Shown here: positions 1,889 through 18,116 of the stretch, one piece after another
How positions within the stretch are numbered: position 1 is the first letter of the stretch
How the letters are laid out: every line of letters starts with the position of its first letter
Origin: Rhodospirillales bacterium
Lineage (GTDB): Bacteria > Pseudomonadota > Alphaproteobacteria > Reyranellales > Reyranellaceae
Assembly (NCBI GenBank): GCA_009377525.1
Contig: WHTW01000021.1
Location: 1-64,000 of the forward strand
DNA length: 64,000 bases
Reading direction: 5' to 3'
The notes under the pieces: generated by a model
The model's database searches: none
Told to the model about the DNA's origin: nothing
The model's input: only the letters and a program-made list of their open reading frames with translations
Made by a program: the position numbers and the translations under genes

Positions 1889-3448
1889 TCAGTTCACCGC
1901 CTTGGTGAAGCCCTTCCAATAGGGCTCGCGCAGTTGCCGCTTCAGCACCTTGCCGGCGCCCGAGAGCGGCAACGGCGTGTCGCGGAAGTCGATGCTGCGC
2001 GGGCACTTGTAGCCGGCGATCTGGCTGCGGCAGTGCTCCATGACGTCGTCGACGCTGAGCGCGACGCCGGGCTTGGGGACAATGATGGCGTGTACGTGCT
2101 CGCCCCAGCGCTCGTCCGGCACGCCGATCACCGCCACTTCGCTCACGCCGGCCAGCAGCGATATCGCGTTCTCGACCTCGGCCGAGTAGACGTTCTCGCC
2201 GCCCGAGATGATCATGTCCTTGAGCCGGTCGACGATATAGACGAAGCCTTGGTCGTCCATGTAGGCGCCGTCGCCGGAATAGTACCAGCCGTCCTTGAGC
2301 ACGGCCTCGGTCTCGGCCGGCTTGTTCCAGTAACCTTCCATGATGTTGGCGCCGCGGATCGCGAGCTCACCCGCGGTGCCGCGCGGCACTTCCTCGCGAT
2401 TGGCATCGACAACCTTGATCTCGCAGCCCAAGGCCACCTGGCCGCAGGACTTGAGCCTGCCGGCGAACGGGCCGTCGAGTGTGGTGTAGCGCGGATCGAG
2501 CAGGGTCACGATAGGCGCCGCCTCGGTCATGCCGTAGGCATGCATCAGCTTCACGTGCGGCATCACCTGCATGGCCCGCCGCAGTACGCCCTCGGGCATC
2601 GGCGAGGCGCCGTACAGGATGAACTGCAGCGTGCGCATGTCGAACTCGGCGAAGCGCGGGTGGTTGACGATCATGTTGATCATGGTCGGCACGAACTGCG
2701 CGTGCGTCACCTTCTCGGTCTGGATGGTCTGCAGCACCTCGACCGGCTCGAAGCGCGGCACGAAAGCGTGGCGTCCGCCTGACATGGTGACGCCGAAGGT
2801 CGAGGCGCCGTCGGCGAGATGGAACATCGGCCCGGAGTGGATGTAGGTCGTGTCGCCGGTGAAGCCGACGCCGGCCACGCCGTTCAGCGCGTTCACCACC
2901 AGGTTGGTGTGGGTGAGCATCACGCCCTTGGAGCGTCCCGTTGTGCCGCCGGTATAGAAAAGACCCGCCAGGTCGTCATTGGCCGCGCCGACATCGAGCG
3001 CCGGATCGTAGTTGGTGAGGTCCTCGAAATGCAGCAGGCCTTCCGGGCCGGACGTGTCGTCGAGCCAGATGACCTCGCGCACGCCCGGCATCTTGTCCTC
3101 GAGCGGCGTCAGGTGGTGCGACATGGCGGCATCGACGAACAGCGCCACGGCGCCCGAATCGGACAGGATGTACTCGATCTCCGGCGCGGCAAGCCGGGTG
3201 TTGATCGGCACCATGGCCACGCCGATCCAGGGGATGGCATACATCAGCTCGAAGTAGCGGTCGCTGTTGAGCGCCAGGATCGCCACCCGGTCGCCGGGTC
3301 GCACGCCCAGCGCGAATAGTGCGCCGGCGATGCGGCTCACCCGGTCCATCGTCTGCTGCCAGGTGCGGCGGCGGCCGGCGAAGTGGGTCGAGATGCCGTT
3401 GGGCTTGGTCTGGGCGGCGCGGCGTAGTCCCTGGGTCAGTGCAAACAT
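1889..3448 (-). CDS. Acyl-CoA synthetase (AMP-forming), second paralogue
   Basis: A 519-residue AMP-forming CoA ligase starting MFALTQGLRRAAQ. The phosphate-binding loop reads YTGGTTGRSKGVMLTH, with Gly in place of the usual Ser after YT, a tolerated variant. HAYGMTEAAP is the adenine/acyl-pocket motif, YYSGDGAYMD the ribose-binding region, and GAGKVLKRQL holds the catalytic lysine. It runs in the same direction as the ligase at 72-1604 and both share the GGENVY(P/S)AEVEN hinge, but they are interrupted by the opposite-strand small membrane gene, so they are not a simple operon. The role is inferred as carboxylic acid activation for beta-oxidation-like degradation; the substrate is unknown. 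Confidence 0.9.
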   Translation of the reverse strand: MFALTQGLRRAAQTKPNGISTHFAGRRRTWQQTMDRVSRIAGALFALGVRPGDRVAILALNSDRYFELMYAIPWIGVAMVPINTRLAAPEIEYILSDSGAVALFVDAAMSHHLTPLEDKMPGVREVIWLDDTSGPEGLLHFEDLTNYDPALDVGAANDDLAGLFYTGGTTGRSKGVMLTHTNLVVNALNGVAGVGFTGDTTYIHSGPMFHLADGASTFGVTMSGGRHAFVPRFEPVEVLQTIQTEKVTHAQFVPTMINMIVNHPRFAEFDMRTLQFILYGASPMPEGVLRRAMQVMPHVKLMHAYGMTEAAPIVTLLDPRYTTLDGPFAGRLKSCGQVALGCEIKVVDANREEVPRGTAGELAIRGANIMEGYWNKPAETEAVLKDGWYYSGDGAYMDDQGFVYIVDRLKDMIISGGENVYSAEVENAISLLAGVSEVAVIGVPDERWGEHVHAIIVPKPGVALSVDDVMEHCRSQIAGYKCPRSIDFRDTPLPLSGAGKVLKRQLREPYWKGFTKAVN

Positions 3449-3494
3449 GGTGAGATGCTAGAGCACCGTCCGTGCAGCTTGAAACAGTTTTCCT

Positions 3495-3619
3495 CCGTCA
3501 TCCCGACCGGAGCCTCGCGAAGCGAGGCGTAGTGGAGGGACCTGTTCTCGCGGCGCCGGCGGCAAAAAAGAGGTCCCTCGACTACGCCACCCTGCGGGTG
3601 GCTTCGCTCGGGATGACGG
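3495..3619. repeat. Long imperfect hairpin repeat (CGTCATCCCGA type)
   Basis: Two 49-base arms, 3495-3543 and 3571-3619, are inverted copies. The outer ends CCGTCATCCCGA and TCGGGATGACGG and the inner ends GGAGGGACCT and AGGTCCCTCG pair, with imperfect middles. The spacer of 27 bases is GC-rich. The element lies between the divergent acyl-CoA synthetase and P450 genes. Hairpins with this CGTCATCCCGA terminus are widespread intergenic repeats in proteobacterial genomes; function here is unknown. Confidence 0.8.
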
Positions 3620-3663
3620 CAAAGGGGAAGCACCCTCGTTCGGTTCGTGCTAAGGAAATGGCC

Positions 3664-4902
3664 ATGAACGACATGACCCCGCCCGTCGCGAATGGCACGC
3701 CGCTCGAGTTCAATCCGCTCGATCCGGCCTTCATCGCCGACCCCTATCCGTTCTATCGCCGCCTGCGCGAGACGGCACCGGTCTTCAAGACGCCGCAGGG
3801 GTTCTGGCTGATCACGCGCTACGAGGACGTGGCTTTCGCCCTGCGCGACAAGCGCTTCGGCAAGGACTTCGTCGGCAACATTCAGCGTCGCTATGGCGAC
3901 ATCGACCGCATGAGCGAGCCGGCCATCGCCAGCCTCGCGCGCACCATGCTGGTGCAGGATCCGCCCGACCATACGCGGCTCCGCGGCCTGGTCACCAAGG
4001 CCTTTACCGCCCGCCGCGTCGCCGACATGCGGCCGCGCATCAGGAAGATCGTCGACGAGCAGCTCGATCGCGTGGCCGACAAGGGCGAGATGGACGTCAT
4101 GCGCGACCTCGCCCATCGCCTGCCGGTGATCGTGATCTGCGATATGCTGGGCATCCCCGAGGATCACCGCGCGCCGTTCCTGGCCGGCAGCAACGTCAAC
4201 GGCCGCATCCTCGAGCCGGTGCCGATGACCCGCGAGGAGATCGACCAGGCCAACCTCAACACCCAGATGGCGGGTGTCTACTTCCGGCAGCTCTGCGAGC
4301 TGCGCCGCCGCGAGCCGCAGGACGATCTCACCACCGAGCTGGTCCGCGCCGAGGAGGCGGGCGACAAGCTCACCGCCGAGGAGCTGGAGGCCAATATCGG
4401 CCTGCTGTTCGGCGCCGGCCACGAGACCACCACGAACCTGATCGGCAACGGCCTCTTGGCGCTGCATCGCCAGCCCGACCAGTGGGAGCGACTGAAGGCC
4501 GACCCGTCGCTGATCGCCAACGCCGTCGAGGAGCTGCTGCGCTACGATTCGTCGGTACAGCTCACCGGCCGCGTCACCAACACCGAGGTTGAGATCGGCG
4601 GCGTGAAGCTGGCCGAGCACGAGAGCATCGTGGCCCTCTTGGGCGCGGCCAACCGCGATCCGGCGCAGTATCCCGATCCGGACCGGCTCGATGTCGGCCG
4701 CGAGCACATCAGGCCGATGTCGTTCGGCGGCGGCATCCACCATTGTCTGGGCGCCCAGCTTGCCCGCCTTGAAGCGGAGCTGGTCTTTGCCGCCTTGATC
4801 GAGCGCATGCCGAACCTCACCTTGCCGGAGAAGGACACGCCGGCCTGGCGGCGCAGCTTCACCCTGCGCGGGCTGAGCAGGCTGCCGGCGGTGTGGCACT
4901 AG
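3664..4902 (+). CDS. Cytochrome P450 (bacterial class I type)
   Basis: A 412-residue soluble P450 predicted to insert one oxygen atom into an organic substrate using electrons from a ferredoxin partner. The heme-binding loop reads FGGGIHHCLGAQLARLE, with Cys361 as thiolate ligand. The I-helix oxygen-activation motif is GAGHETT, and the K-helix ExxR appears in VEELLRYDSSVQ. The Met at 3664 is preceded by AAGGA seven bases upstream, which favours it over ATG 3658; the frame stays open far upstream through the hairpin repeat, which is not coding. No ferredoxin or reductase gene is adjacent. It ends 15 bases before the PP2C gene, so the two may be cotranscribed. The substrate cannot be deduced. 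Confidence 0.93.
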   Translation: MNDMTPPVANGTPLEFNPLDPAFIADPYPFYRRLRETAPVFKTPQGFWLITRYEDVAFALRDKRFGKDFVGNIQRRYGDIDRMSEPAIASLARTMLVQDPPDHTRLRGLVTKAFTARRVADMRPRIRKIVDEQLDRVADKGEMDVMRDLAHRLPVIVICDMLGIPEDHRAPFLAGSNVNGRILEPVPMTREEIDQANLNTQMAGVYFRQLCELRRREPQDDLTTELVRAEEAGDKLTAEELEANIGLLFGAGHETTTNLIGNGLLALHRQPDQWERLKADPSLIANAVEELLRYDSSVQLTGRVTNTEVEIGGVKLAEHESIVALLGAANRDPAQYPDPDRLDVGREHIRPMSFGGGIHHCLGAQLARLEAELVFAALIERMPNLTLPEKDTPAWRRSFTLRGLSRLPAVWH

Positions 4903-15360: not shown

Positions 15361-15410
15361 GGAGCGCGGGCCTCCGGCCCGCTCATGATGCGGGCGGAGG
15401 CCCGCGCTCC
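15361..15410. repeat. Dispersed palindromic repeat, copy 3 (50-base near-perfect hairpin)
   Basis: Arms beginning GGAGCGCGGGCCTCCGGCC and ending GGCGGAGGCCCGCGCTCC are inverted copies with one base of length difference, around a short TCATGATG centre. It sits between the convergent acyl-CoA dehydrogenase and Rieske oxygenase genes and touches the latter's stop codon. It may serve as a bidirectional transcript terminator in addition to being a repeat copy; no T-run follows. Confidence 0.85.
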
Positions 15411-16534
15411 TATGAAATCGGCGAGGACCCGTTCAGCGCCCGCACGACCATCTTCTGGAAATGGATCACGAGCTGCTCGCTGTTGGTGAGGAAGCGGCCG
15501 CGCTCGGGCAATCCGCCCGTCAACCCGCGCTGGACGGAGTCGGTCAGTTCGTCATCCTCCAGGGCGACCTGCTTGTTGAAGGCGATCAGCGACTGCGCGA
15601 ATTGCTCGCTGACGCCCGGCCCGAAGAACTGCTCCGAGAAGCCGCGGGTCGCGTTGGGGCCGTCCGGCAGCCAGACGTCGATCGAGAGGTTCGGGAAGCC
15701 CGGGTTGATGTTGATGGTGAGGTTCGGCCACAGAAAGTGGTACTGCGATTCGCCGACCTCGCCGCGCACGTCGTAGAGCTCGACCTTGGCCTTGCCTTCG
15801 AGCGCGGCGGTCCGCACGCGGCCGGCCTGGCTCGAGAACCAGCCGTGCGGCGCCAGGCTGTAGACGTCGGGCCGCACGTCGATCGCCGCGCTGAAGCCCG
15901 GATGGGCGACGGCGCAGTGGTAGCATTCGAGGTAGTTCTCCAGCATCGCCTTCCAGTTGGCGCGCGCCTGCCACTCGTTGCGGCTGTGGAGCTGGATGGT
16001 GGCGAGATCGATGCCGCTCCTGGCGATGATGTCGAGCACGGGCCCGAAACAGTCCCTGGCCGACGGCGCCTCTCGATCGAGGTTGACGAAGACGAACGGC
16101 CCCAGCGCCTCGGCCCGGATGGGCAGCAGCGGGAAGTCTTCCAGTCGGAAATCGGGCTCGGCCGCCGAGCGCGGCGCACGCCGCAGCCCACCGGCGAGGT
16201 CGTAGGTCCAGGCGTGGTAGCCGCATTGCATCAGGCTGGCGTTGCCGCGGCCCTTCATTACCTGGTGGCGGCGATGGCGGCAGACATTGACGAAGCCCGC
16301 CAGCCCCTTGTCGTTGCGCACGACCACCACCGGCACGCTGCCGGCATGGCCGGTGACGTAGTCGCCGACGTTGGCGAGCTCGGCGAGCGGCCCGACATAG
16401 TTCCAGCTCTTGCGAAAGACGAGCAGCGGCTCCTGCTCTGTGATCGACGGATCGGTGTACCAGCGGGCCGGCAGCGATTCGCCGCGGTCGAGCGCGCAGA
16501 GCAAATCGGCACAGGTTCGGCTGGGCTGAGTCAT
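15410..16534 (-). CDS. Rieske non-heme iron oxygenase, alpha subunit
   Basis: A 374-residue aromatic-ring-hydroxylating dioxygenase-type large subunit. The Rieske 2Fe-2S ligands are in CRHRRHQVMKGRG and CGYHAWTYDLAGGL. The mononuclear iron region reads ENYLECYHCAVAHPGFS, giving the expected His pair and the preceding bridging Glu. It would hydroxylate or demethylate an organic substrate using electrons from a reductase. No small subunit, ferredoxin or reductase gene adjoins, which is common for the monooxygenase/demethylase branch. The substrate is unknown. Confidence 0.92.
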   Translation of the reverse strand: MTQPSRTCADLLCALDRGESLPARWYTDPSITEQEPLLVFRKSWNYVGPLAELANVGDYVTGHAGSVPVVVVRNDKGLAGFVNVCRHRRHQVMKGRGNASLMQCGYHAWTYDLAGGLRRAPRSAAEPDFRLEDFPLLPIRAEALGPFVFVNLDREAPSARDCFGPVLDIIARSGIDLATIQLHSRNEWQARANWKAMLENYLECYHCAVAHPGFSAAIDVRPDVYSLAPHGWFSSQAGRVRTAALEGKAKVELYDVRGEVGESQYHFLWPNLTININPGFPNLSIDVWLPDGPNATRGFSEQFFGPGVSEQFAQSLIAFNKQVALEDDELTDSVQRGLTGGLPERGRFLTNSEQLVIHFQKMVVRALNGSSPIS

Positions 16535-16791
16535 CCATCGATCCTAGCAGCTTGCCACAGAGGTTTTGACGGGTTGGAGTAGAATCACGCAAGGATTTAC
16601 AGCTCCGTGGCCGGATGAGGATCGTGACGAAGCCGTTGCGCGGGCGGCCGCCTGTCGCGGCGTGGTGTTGGCGTAGAAAGCATTGCTGGCAACACAAGGA
16701 ATGGCGTGGTCGCCCGCTCGACCCGCCAAAACGTGACCCCCTCCCTCTACGGTGCGAAAAAACTCGCGAAAACGAAATTGGCGACTTCTGC

Positions 16792-16828
16792 ACTGAAGTG
16801 CTTGACAAGAATGCACTTGAGTTATAAT
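16792..16828 (+). promoter_or_regulatory. Near-consensus sigma-70 promoter embedded in an operator-like dyad
   Basis: TTGACA (16802-16807) and TATAAT (16823-16828) both match consensus exactly, with a 15-base spacer, slightly short. The half sites ACTGAAGTGC (16792-16801) and GCACTTGAGT (16813-16822) are inverted copies matching at 9 of 10 positions; they flank the -35 box and abut the -10 box. Such geometry suits repression by a dimeric regulator. No convincing gene follows on the plus strand, so an RNA product or an element remnant is possible. Confidence 0.6.
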
Positions 16829-16982
16829 ATCGGTCTGTCGCGTTGCTTTCGCGTTGTCGCTTTTTGCATCGTTGATCCGAGACCAAAGGTCAGGCTAGGC
16901 ACCGCGCCCGTCCCGTCCGGCCGCTTGCGTCCGGACGGGATGGGGCTCGGGGCTCGGCTCATCGATGCGGCGATTCCGGTTG

Positions 16983-17262
16983 CGCGTAACTATCCGAACT
17001 CGGAATGAGGCCCGACCGATAGGGAGTACGATCTCAAAGGGCCACGCACAGAGGTCAGCGCAAAATGCAGAAAATGCTGAAATTCGCAAAACCCTTGAAA
17101 AACGCGCATCGGATCACTCCCCGCGGATCCTGCCGTAAATAGCCGAAAATGCAGAAAATCGCGTCATGCTCTCCGGGCCGCCAGCCTTTGCCGCGTTCGA
17201 AAACCAATAGCTAAACTTGCGTAACTATCCGAATTCGCCGCCGAGCCCCATCGATAGCGGGT
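16983..17262. repeat. Internal direct-repeat pair in the gene-free region
   Basis: CGCGTAACTATCCGAACTCG (16983-17002) recurs as TGCGTAACTATCCGAATTCG (17218-17237), 18 of 20 identical. Each copy is followed by a weakly similar GAG-CCC-CGATAG-GGG stretch, making each unit about 45 bases. A second short pair, AAAATGCAGAAAAT, occurs near 17062 and 17147. No coding explanation was found. Confidence 0.6.
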
Positions 17263-17489
17263 CGACTTCCGAGGCACCCCTACGACCTCTGAATGAGCTC
17301 GCCTCCGTCATCGGTTCGTGGCCGAGGAAGGGGCATTGTCGTTGCTGTCGCTGTTCAGGCGACAGCGCCCGGCCGCCGCCAGTGCCCGAAGGAGCAGAGG
17401 CATCAATGACTTGCGGCGATTTCCGGAGAGGCGCAGCGAACGCGATCCCGTTTGCCATTCAGCCCGTCAAAACCCCTGTGACGAAGATG

Positions 17490-18116
17490 CTAGTCGGTCA
17501 GGGAGCGCTTAATTGTGGCGACGACCGTCATGACGGCGGCGTGACCCATCATCAGCAGGAAAATTGTCCAGACAGCCGTGATGACGCTGAACAGCCAGCC
17601 GGCCATGGCCATCACGCCGTCATCTTCGATCAAGGCGAGGCAGAAGAACATGATCGCCCATGCCGGGAACAGATTGTCGAACGGAATGGGCAACGCCAGG
17701 ATCACGATGTTGATCGCCCATGCGGCAAGCAGTGCGCGCCGCGGCATGCCGCTGATCCACCACTCGTGCCGGACGTGGACGGTGTCCTCGAGCCACCGGA
17801 TGAAACGGCGTGAGCGGTCGAGGAAGACCTGAAGCTTGCCGCGCCGCAGGCCGCGGCGGCCGACCAACGCCGGCAGCTTCGGCACCTCGCGGCCGACGAA
17901 GAACTGCACCAGCAGGAACGCCATCGGCAAGCCGGTTATGGTGGAGAGCCAGGGGATTCCCGTGGGGATGCAGTTCGGTACGTTGAGGGCCGCGATCGCG
18001 AAGGCGTAGGAGCGTCCGTGCAGCCCGCCGAGGAATTCGTCGAGAGTGAGTAACGACTGTCGATCGCCCGCGAAGAGCAGCTCGAGCGTCTGCAGAAGAC
18101 CGAAATTGTCCTTCAT
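17490..18116 (-). CDS. ExoD-like exopolysaccharide synthesis membrane protein
   Basis: A 208-residue protein resembling ExoD of rhizobia: a soluble N terminus (MKDNFGLLQTLELLF...LTLDEFLGGLHGRSYAF), then hydrophobic segments around ALNVPNCIPTGIPWLSTITG and two C-terminal membrane pairs (LLAAWAINIVILALPIPF, GWLFSVITAVWTIFLLMMG). ExoD-family proteins influence exopolysaccharide production and alkali tolerance; the mechanism is not established. The start ATG overlaps the stop of the upstream CitE-like gene (ATGA), so translation is coupled. The stop codon lies inside the right inverted repeat of the 949-base element, so the present C terminus may have been shaped by insertion. Confidence 0.75.
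   Translation of the reverse strand: MKDNFGLLQTLELLFAGDRQSLLTLDEFLGGLHGRSYAFAIAALNVPNCIPTGIPWLSTITGLPMAFLLVQFFVGREVPKLPALVGRRGLRRGKLQVFLDRSRRFIRWLEDTVHVRHEWWISGMPRRALLAAWAINIVILALPIPFDNLFPAWAIMFFCLALIEDDGVMAMAGWLFSVITAVWTIFLLMMGHAAVMTVVATIKRSLTD

Follow-up and report, generated by a model that had tools for sequence, protein, structure and literature searches.

The window, a stretch of 64,000 nucleotides from contig WHTW01000021.1 of a Rhodospirillales bacterium, contains an inserted element of 944 bp between two host genes, one encoding the alpha subunit of a Rieske / ring-hydroxylating oxygenase and the other an ExoD-like protein (Table 1). The start codon of the ring-hydroxylase gene is 12 bp away from the element, and on the other side the TAG stop codon of the exoD-like gene overlaps the target CTAG. 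The element parts the exoD-like gene from the next gene, with both read on the minus strand, and a polar effect of the insertion on these neighbours is likely.

Table 1. Features of the inserted element and its two neighbouring genes (window positions; a point in the strand column marks features without orientation)
Feature	Position	Strand	Evidence
Host gene, left: Rieske / ring-hydroxylating oxygenase alpha subunit	15410..16534	-	Pfam PF00848 9.4e-27, PF00355 7.5e-14
TA target duplication, left copy	16545..16546	.	within CTAG 16544-16547; empty sites G014, G020, G009
Inserted element, whole	16547..17490	.	TA duplication; empty sites in relatives
Left TIR	16547..16577	+	end alignment; motif 60x in genome, control 1
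Left sub-terminal region, possibly decayed 3' end of IS630-linked LexA-like HTH gene	16578..16660	-	alignment scores vs shuffles
A-rich conserved block upstream of promoter	16748..16782	+	34-copy alignment
Sigma-70-like promoter TTGACA-N15-TATAAT with ACNNNAGTT-type motifs	16802..16828	+	sequence comparison of copies
Hairpin 1 of proposed RNA, loop shortened in window copy	16840..16854	+	folding, covariation
Box 1, consensus CTCTATGCATCGTYNATCCG; 2 mismatches in window copy	16860..16879	+	copy comparison
GC-rich hairpin 2, terminator-like, no U run	16907..16945	+	folds
Box 2 (GCGTAACTRTCCGAA)	16984..16998	+	copy alignments
Fragment 91% identical to L030 intergenic stretch, breaks usual family pattern	17045..17185	.	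copy comparison
Box 2, second copy; also present in other subfamilies	17219..17233	+	copy comparison
Right-end module of another subfamily (L032, L035, L036; 82-86%)	17321..17490	.	copy comparison
Right TIR	17460..17490	-	end alignment; motif counts
TA target duplication, right copy	17491..17492	.	belongs to TAG stop codon of ExoD-like gene
Host gene, right: ExoD-like	17490..18116	-	Pfam PF06055 1.9e-39

The stretch 16544-17493 carries CTAG at both extremities, and its ends are imperfect inverted repeats. The sequence-only reading had placed imperfect terminal inverted repeats (TIRs) of 33 and 34 bases here, and the repeats stand, with a local alignment score of 23 against a highest score of 14 in 2000 shuffles, but its left coordinate was one base out. 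Read inward, both TIRs give CTAGCANCTT..CACAG.GGTTTTGACGGG.TG. The interior is AT-richer, as that reading had said, with a GC content of 0.588 compared with 0.66 in the window, and only 2 of 631 sliding 944-bp windows are lower. Its remark that no transposase-like frame is present also holds: the longest internal ORF has 100 aa, and no ORF for a DDE transposase of its own was found within the 944-bp element, which is therefore non-autonomous and not an IS.

We looked for the ring-hydroxylase/exoD-like junction in 64 relatives, and in three of them the element is absent, with both flanks joining at a single CTAG in genomes G014 and G020 and at TTAG in G009. These syntenic junctions bear out the proposal that the stretch is inserted rather than ancestral, and because the flanks meet there without the element, they also set its borders and the duplicated TA. 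In G061 the flanks are approximately 37 bp apart, with neither the element nor CTAG between them, and G004 was not counted as an empty site, since it fits only the right flank plus about 25 bases of the left. By our own count of the matches, 25 further genomes have both flanking pieces at most 170 bp apart. Other family members occupy this same junction in G053 and G012, and this may reflect re-use of one target or turnover of an older insertion.

The element belongs to a dispersed family. A search of its own genome (G000) returned at least 53 matches, in pieces and at 69-100% identity, with 40 of the 164 candidates scored. Across 34 aligned copies the family left end is TAGCTCGTCACAGAGGTTTTGACGGG, and the right end is its imperfect inverse. 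With up to 3 mismatches allowed, the end motif occurs 60 times in G000 (reversed control 1) and 24 times in G012 (control 0), as well as 3 times in G004, twice in G014, 4 times in G020 and once in G009, where the control also gives 1; the ends are thus multi-copy and not single in the genome. For 58 distinct TIR copies in the stretches fetched from G000, CTAG is found at the predicted outside place in 31 and TA in 37, and CTAG at any other offset in at most 3. This preference for CTAG accounts for the landing of such an element in a TAG stop codon. The earlier suggestion of a MITE or other non-autonomous element agrees with copies that are dispersed and have TIRs in common, with the duplicated TA and with the empty sites. 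A non-coding, multi-copy element bounded by TIRs, it is longer at 944 bp than typical MITEs. Eighteen TIR copies of G000 (in loci L062-L094) are no more than 300 bp from a contig end, which indicates that the assembly breaks inside elements and that copy numbers are probably underestimated. Many G000 copies have variable 9-base tandem units (for example, GGAAAYGCC repeated 2-3 times) in their right third, before the right end; these units look iteron-like and differ between subfamilies. One sister copy (L010:2000-2500) is broken after box 2 by an apparent IS3-type element, recognised by eye from an OrfA-like frame, and L016 holds an apparent scar of that IS3-type element.

A full-length copy with a transposase had been named as something to look for, and similar ends do bound IS630 elements. 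Locus L090 contains, at 2914-4390, an IS630-family (Tc1/mariner) element of about 1.48 kb whose ends are related, not identical, to the MITE ends, and its 407-aa ORF is an IS630 transposase (NF033545, 5.3e-72; Pfam DDE_3, 6.2e-28). In locus L192 of G005 the left end, CTAGTAGCTCGTCACAGAGGATTTGACGAGTTGAG, is almost the MITE end, so that the IS end closest to that of the MITE sits in a genome that does not carry the internal module described below. An ORF encoding a LexA-like HTH protein comes after some of the TIR copies; the protein of L090 matches the LexA DNA-binding domain barely over the cut-off. This LexA-like winged HTH gene lies on the strand opposite to the transposase (L090:2954-3238, minus strand), and it is also seen at L063:2970-3272 (minus strand), where no intact transposase ORF was noted. 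Close relatives of the transposase (E <=1e-60) are present in 6 of 65 genus genomes, three of which carry the module box (G000, G053 and G020) and three of which do not (G005, G041 and G042). Seven of the approximately ten carriers (G004, G009, G012, G014, G055, G059 and G061) have no transposase relative at E <=1e-60, and their transposases must therefore be more distant, unassembled or lost. A second transposase match in G000 (L197) is 52% identical over part of its length and is without such ends, and no copy with both transposase and module was found in the loci examined.

The sequence-only reading had considered CTAG compatible with an IS5-group target site, and IS427-type elements do use CTAG. 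The CTAG target is, however, all that points to an IS5-group (IS427-like) derivative, which we consider extremely improbable, because the transposase found with similar TIRs is of the IS630 family and the duplication of TA within CTAG at the junction is the IS630 pattern. Judged by its TIRs, which are like those of transposase-bearing elements, its duplicated TA and its preference for CTAG, the window element is a non-autonomous member of the IS630 type and not of IS5.

The inside of the element is occupied by a module that recurs among the copies. In most copies TTGAC[AT] is followed 15-17 bases on by TATAAT or TATATT (TAGNGT-like in one class), at one of a few fixed distances to box 1, and L179 and L170 have no clear TTGAC. 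At least one ACNNNAGTT-type motif accompanies 139 of 157 copies and two accompany 72, compared with 2.65 and 0 in mononucleotide shuffles, and the paired motifs are spaced by 22-25 bp in 64 of those 72. Box 1, which lies downstream of the promoter, comprises 20 near-invariant bases and is the most conserved part. Hairpin 2 varies among subfamilies and often follows hairpin 1 and box 1, with box 2 coming after it. With at most one mismatch, box 1 is found in 11 of 65 genus genomes, with 71 copies in G053, 70 in G000, 54 in G012, 46 in G061, 30 in G014, 19 in G055, 15 in G020, 8 in G004, 2 in G009 and 1 each in G059 and G063, and the reversed control gives 0 in all; the match in G063 has no promoter, and the number of likely carriers is therefore 10 and not 11. 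Of the 76 genomes searched in the order, 9 contain an exact box 1, and every one of them is in this genus.

A scan of contigs gave at least 92 stretches with module matches (80 entries examined), and among the matches listed all are Reyranella or Rhodospirillales except three. One of these, in an Alphaproteobacteria MAG (L127), is identical from promoter to box to locus L228 of G009, and another is in a Chloroflexi MAG (L118), which may be mis-binned. The third, in a Syntrophobacteraceae MAG (L170), has no promoter and looks like chance. Since copies of groups A and B pair in different registers, the model built for a wider search was kept sequence-only, and with 10 candidates scored per genome in 385 genomes drawn from the class it matched its own genome only; the three other genus genomes among these results are non-carriers, and the outcome argues only weakly for absence. 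No match at E 1e-5 was obtained in plasmid and phage collections.

The ends and the module do not always go together. For 125 box copies with both flanks available, a good left TIR was seen in 43, a good right TIR in 28 and both in 14, with 0 for shuffled flanks. Divergent TIRs may be part of the explanation for box copies without good TIRs, and four copies (L228, L231, L237 and L229) look TIR-less, and such copies retain promoter and box. A second re-used spacer, before a gene that we take to be lepA, holds differing family members in G000, G012, G014, G053 and G061, and in G009 it holds a TIR-less unit (loci L228:630-930 and L252-L258). The G009 spacer measures approximately 235 bp between aligned flanks, whereas at least 15 relatives have only 7-52 bp there. 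Longer spacers do occur at this putative lepA site in some relatives, and in that of G043, which was inspected, no box was seen.

To assess the structure that may follow the promoter, we folded the 26 bases before the box against dinucleotide shuffles, in copies with the longer promoter-box distance. Because choosing the copies of the alignments described below could flatter the structure, every eligible copy was folded, namely the 111 of 161 whose promoter lies at the expected distance (the other 50, which are of class C, short, contain N or have no promoter found, were dropped). Hairpin 1 has a mean folding z of -1.28, with 62 copies below -1, and the control stretch upstream of the promoter has a mean z of 0.04, with 14 copies below -1. 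RNAalifold gave a poor structure (-6.35 kcal/mol) for the mixed-subfamily alignment A1 (31 of 32 copies, with L040 left out and the short L015 and L024 dropped earlier), and the subfamilies were then split. Alignments A2 and A3 consist of selected copies with structures set by eye, A3 comprising 38 of 54 group-A copies plus L156 and L189 (those removed are mostly near-duplicates, together with misfits such as L110, L178 and L184) and A2 comprising 40 of 59 group-B copies (without the seven-copy L032/L035/L036/L042-L045 type and 12 others including L170). A further alignment, A4, combines 25 group-A and 24 group-B copies.

In A3, pairing is 88.3% and covariation is 0.292, a value as high in 0 of 500 shuffles and with a best slid value of 0.171. 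Of its 6 pairs, 3 show two-sided changes, but 48 of 500 shuffles do as well, and 22 of 40 copies have pair 11-20 broken. In A2, pairing is 95.8% and covariation is 0.141 (0 of 500 shuffles as high, best slid 0.098); two-sided changes affect 4 of its 7 pairs, as they do in 1 of 500 shuffles, but they involve just 4 cells and slid versions reach 3 pairs. As the shuffles ignore relatedness, we treat the covariation as support and not as proof. G-U pairs make up 74 of 212 paired cells in A3, and this abundance fits RNA better than a DNA palindrome. The conserved promoter is followed by a putative hairpin that is backed by folding and modest covariation, and the element may be a small-RNA-encoding MITE of the QMITE kind. 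A search of Rfam gave nothing above the gathering score in the window element or in L228:600-1050.

The module could be read as a small-peptide gene running from an ATG in box 1 to a TAA in box 2, and the ATG is retained in 153 of 161 copies, with 19 of the 28 copies that have box 2 in frame being open and some ending VAKLA. We regard this as very improbable and rejected it, for there is no consistent frame across copies: of 68 copies, 28 have box 2 in frame with the ATG but 20 and 20 have it in the other two frames, codon 4 is TGA in 29 of 161 copies and TAA in 1 of 161, and the length between the boxes varies widely. A more serious possibility, although on balance an unlikely one, is an ordinary IS630 MITE whose interior has no RNA role, with promoter and box serving as cis DNA sites (operators, or binding sites for transposase or host factors) or with a promoter that is incidental, as in Correia elements. 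The paired ACNNNAGTT-type motifs with their regular spacing resemble protein binding, modest covariation suits a DNA site, and sigma-70-like promoters are described in several bacterial MITEs (PMC10969869). It accommodates less readily that the post-promoter stretch folds better than both shuffled and control sequence, that pairing survives some two-sided changes with many G-U pairs, and that box 1, the most conserved part, lies downstream of the promoter and is kept with it in apparently TIR-less copies.

The window copy is itself, to judge from comparison with other copies, a mosaic of two subfamilies and a foreign fragment. Its left part resembles group A, and its right end belongs to another subfamily (Table 1). 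The fragment between them matches L030:2507-2648, which lies beside an unrelated gene and has short A-rich repeats. With two mismatches in its box and a shortened hairpin loop, the window copy may be decaying. At the left, the sub-terminal region is similar to that end of IS630 elements which holds the HTH gene, most clearly in the hybrid L067, which scores 172 against L063 (shuffled maximum 40); sister copy L010 scores 43 against the IS of L192 (shuffled maximum 35), and the window copy has weak scores of 29, 25 and 31, equalled by 23, 92 and 10 of 500 shuffles. This likeness would suit descent from one IS whose transposase was removed by internal deletion, but we consider such an origin improbable, because the interior is a module common to several subfamilies and genomes, with copies by the dozen. 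The relic proposed by the sequence-only reading therefore survives at most for the ends, the interior being a conserved promoter and RNA-like module and not a decayed transposase.

We conclude, with a probability of about 0.78, that the element belongs to a mobile small-RNA gene family that is non-autonomous and moved in trans by an IS630-family (Tc1/mariner) transposase, the RNA being predicted from the module. The carriers in which no close transposase relative was found and the modest covariation count against this reading. An IS630-type transposase would act in trans on the element ends; the insertion itself took place into the TA of the CTAG that overlaps the exoD-like stop codon. The internal module would be transcribed as a small structured RNA of approximately 100-200 nt, and our preferred guess is that this RNA would regulate by base pairing through box 1. 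A stronger and doubtful version is that these are genus-specific, true mobile small-RNA genes, which arose when IS630-type ends took up an RNA gene whose promoter is under operator control. Selection would have retained the RNA while its copy number rose to about 70 per genome in some Reyranella species, also in TIR-less form; its near-invariant box would act in trans on messages of the host or of transposons, and the LexA-like HTH protein may regulate the promoter. If the family is what we propose, one RNA may be present in dozens of copies in several species of a single genus. If transcribed, these copies would amount to natural replicates of one regulatory RNA at dozens of loci, and would offer a direct way to ask if transposition spreads RNA genes and what maintains them.

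Bacterial MITEs are usually regarded as short debris in which promoters are incidental, and Correia elements, for example, are about 100-150 bp long with a TA duplication. The resemblance of the present element to known IS630 members lies in its TA duplication, the placement of that TA in CTAG, its TIRs and the DDE transposase of the partner element: PMC2170065 describes ISY100 as an IS630-family element that duplicates TA, and a title by Tenzen and Ohtsubo cited there states that IS630 prefers TA in CTAG. It differs in that the window element has no transposase and the partner in L090 adds an opposite-strand LexA-like HTH gene. Correia elements of Neisseria are multi-copy and carry sigma-70-like promoters able to drive neighbouring genes (PMC10969869), whereas in the present family the promoter lies inside the element and a conserved RNA-like module comes after it. 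The nearest comparison is with QMITE1 and QMITE2 of Coxiella burnetii, which PMC5896051 presents as non-autonomous elements of about 50 copies each from which small RNAs arise, with sigma-70 promoters in QMITE1. MITEs with promoters (PMC10969869) and, in Coxiella, with small RNAs (PMC5896051) are thus already in print, and a search of the open-licence literature by title or abstract start gave no paper describing this Reyranella family. QMITEs are 150-400 bp long with other direct repeats (PMC5896051), whereas the family described here measures about 500-950 bp and has IS630-like ends and an RNA predicted from sequence; its single promoter-hairpin-box module is shared by several genomes, which belong to a different class from Coxiella. 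Transposon ends carry this one conserved unit in many subfamilies and in several species, and the cargo may therefore be the RNA unit itself.
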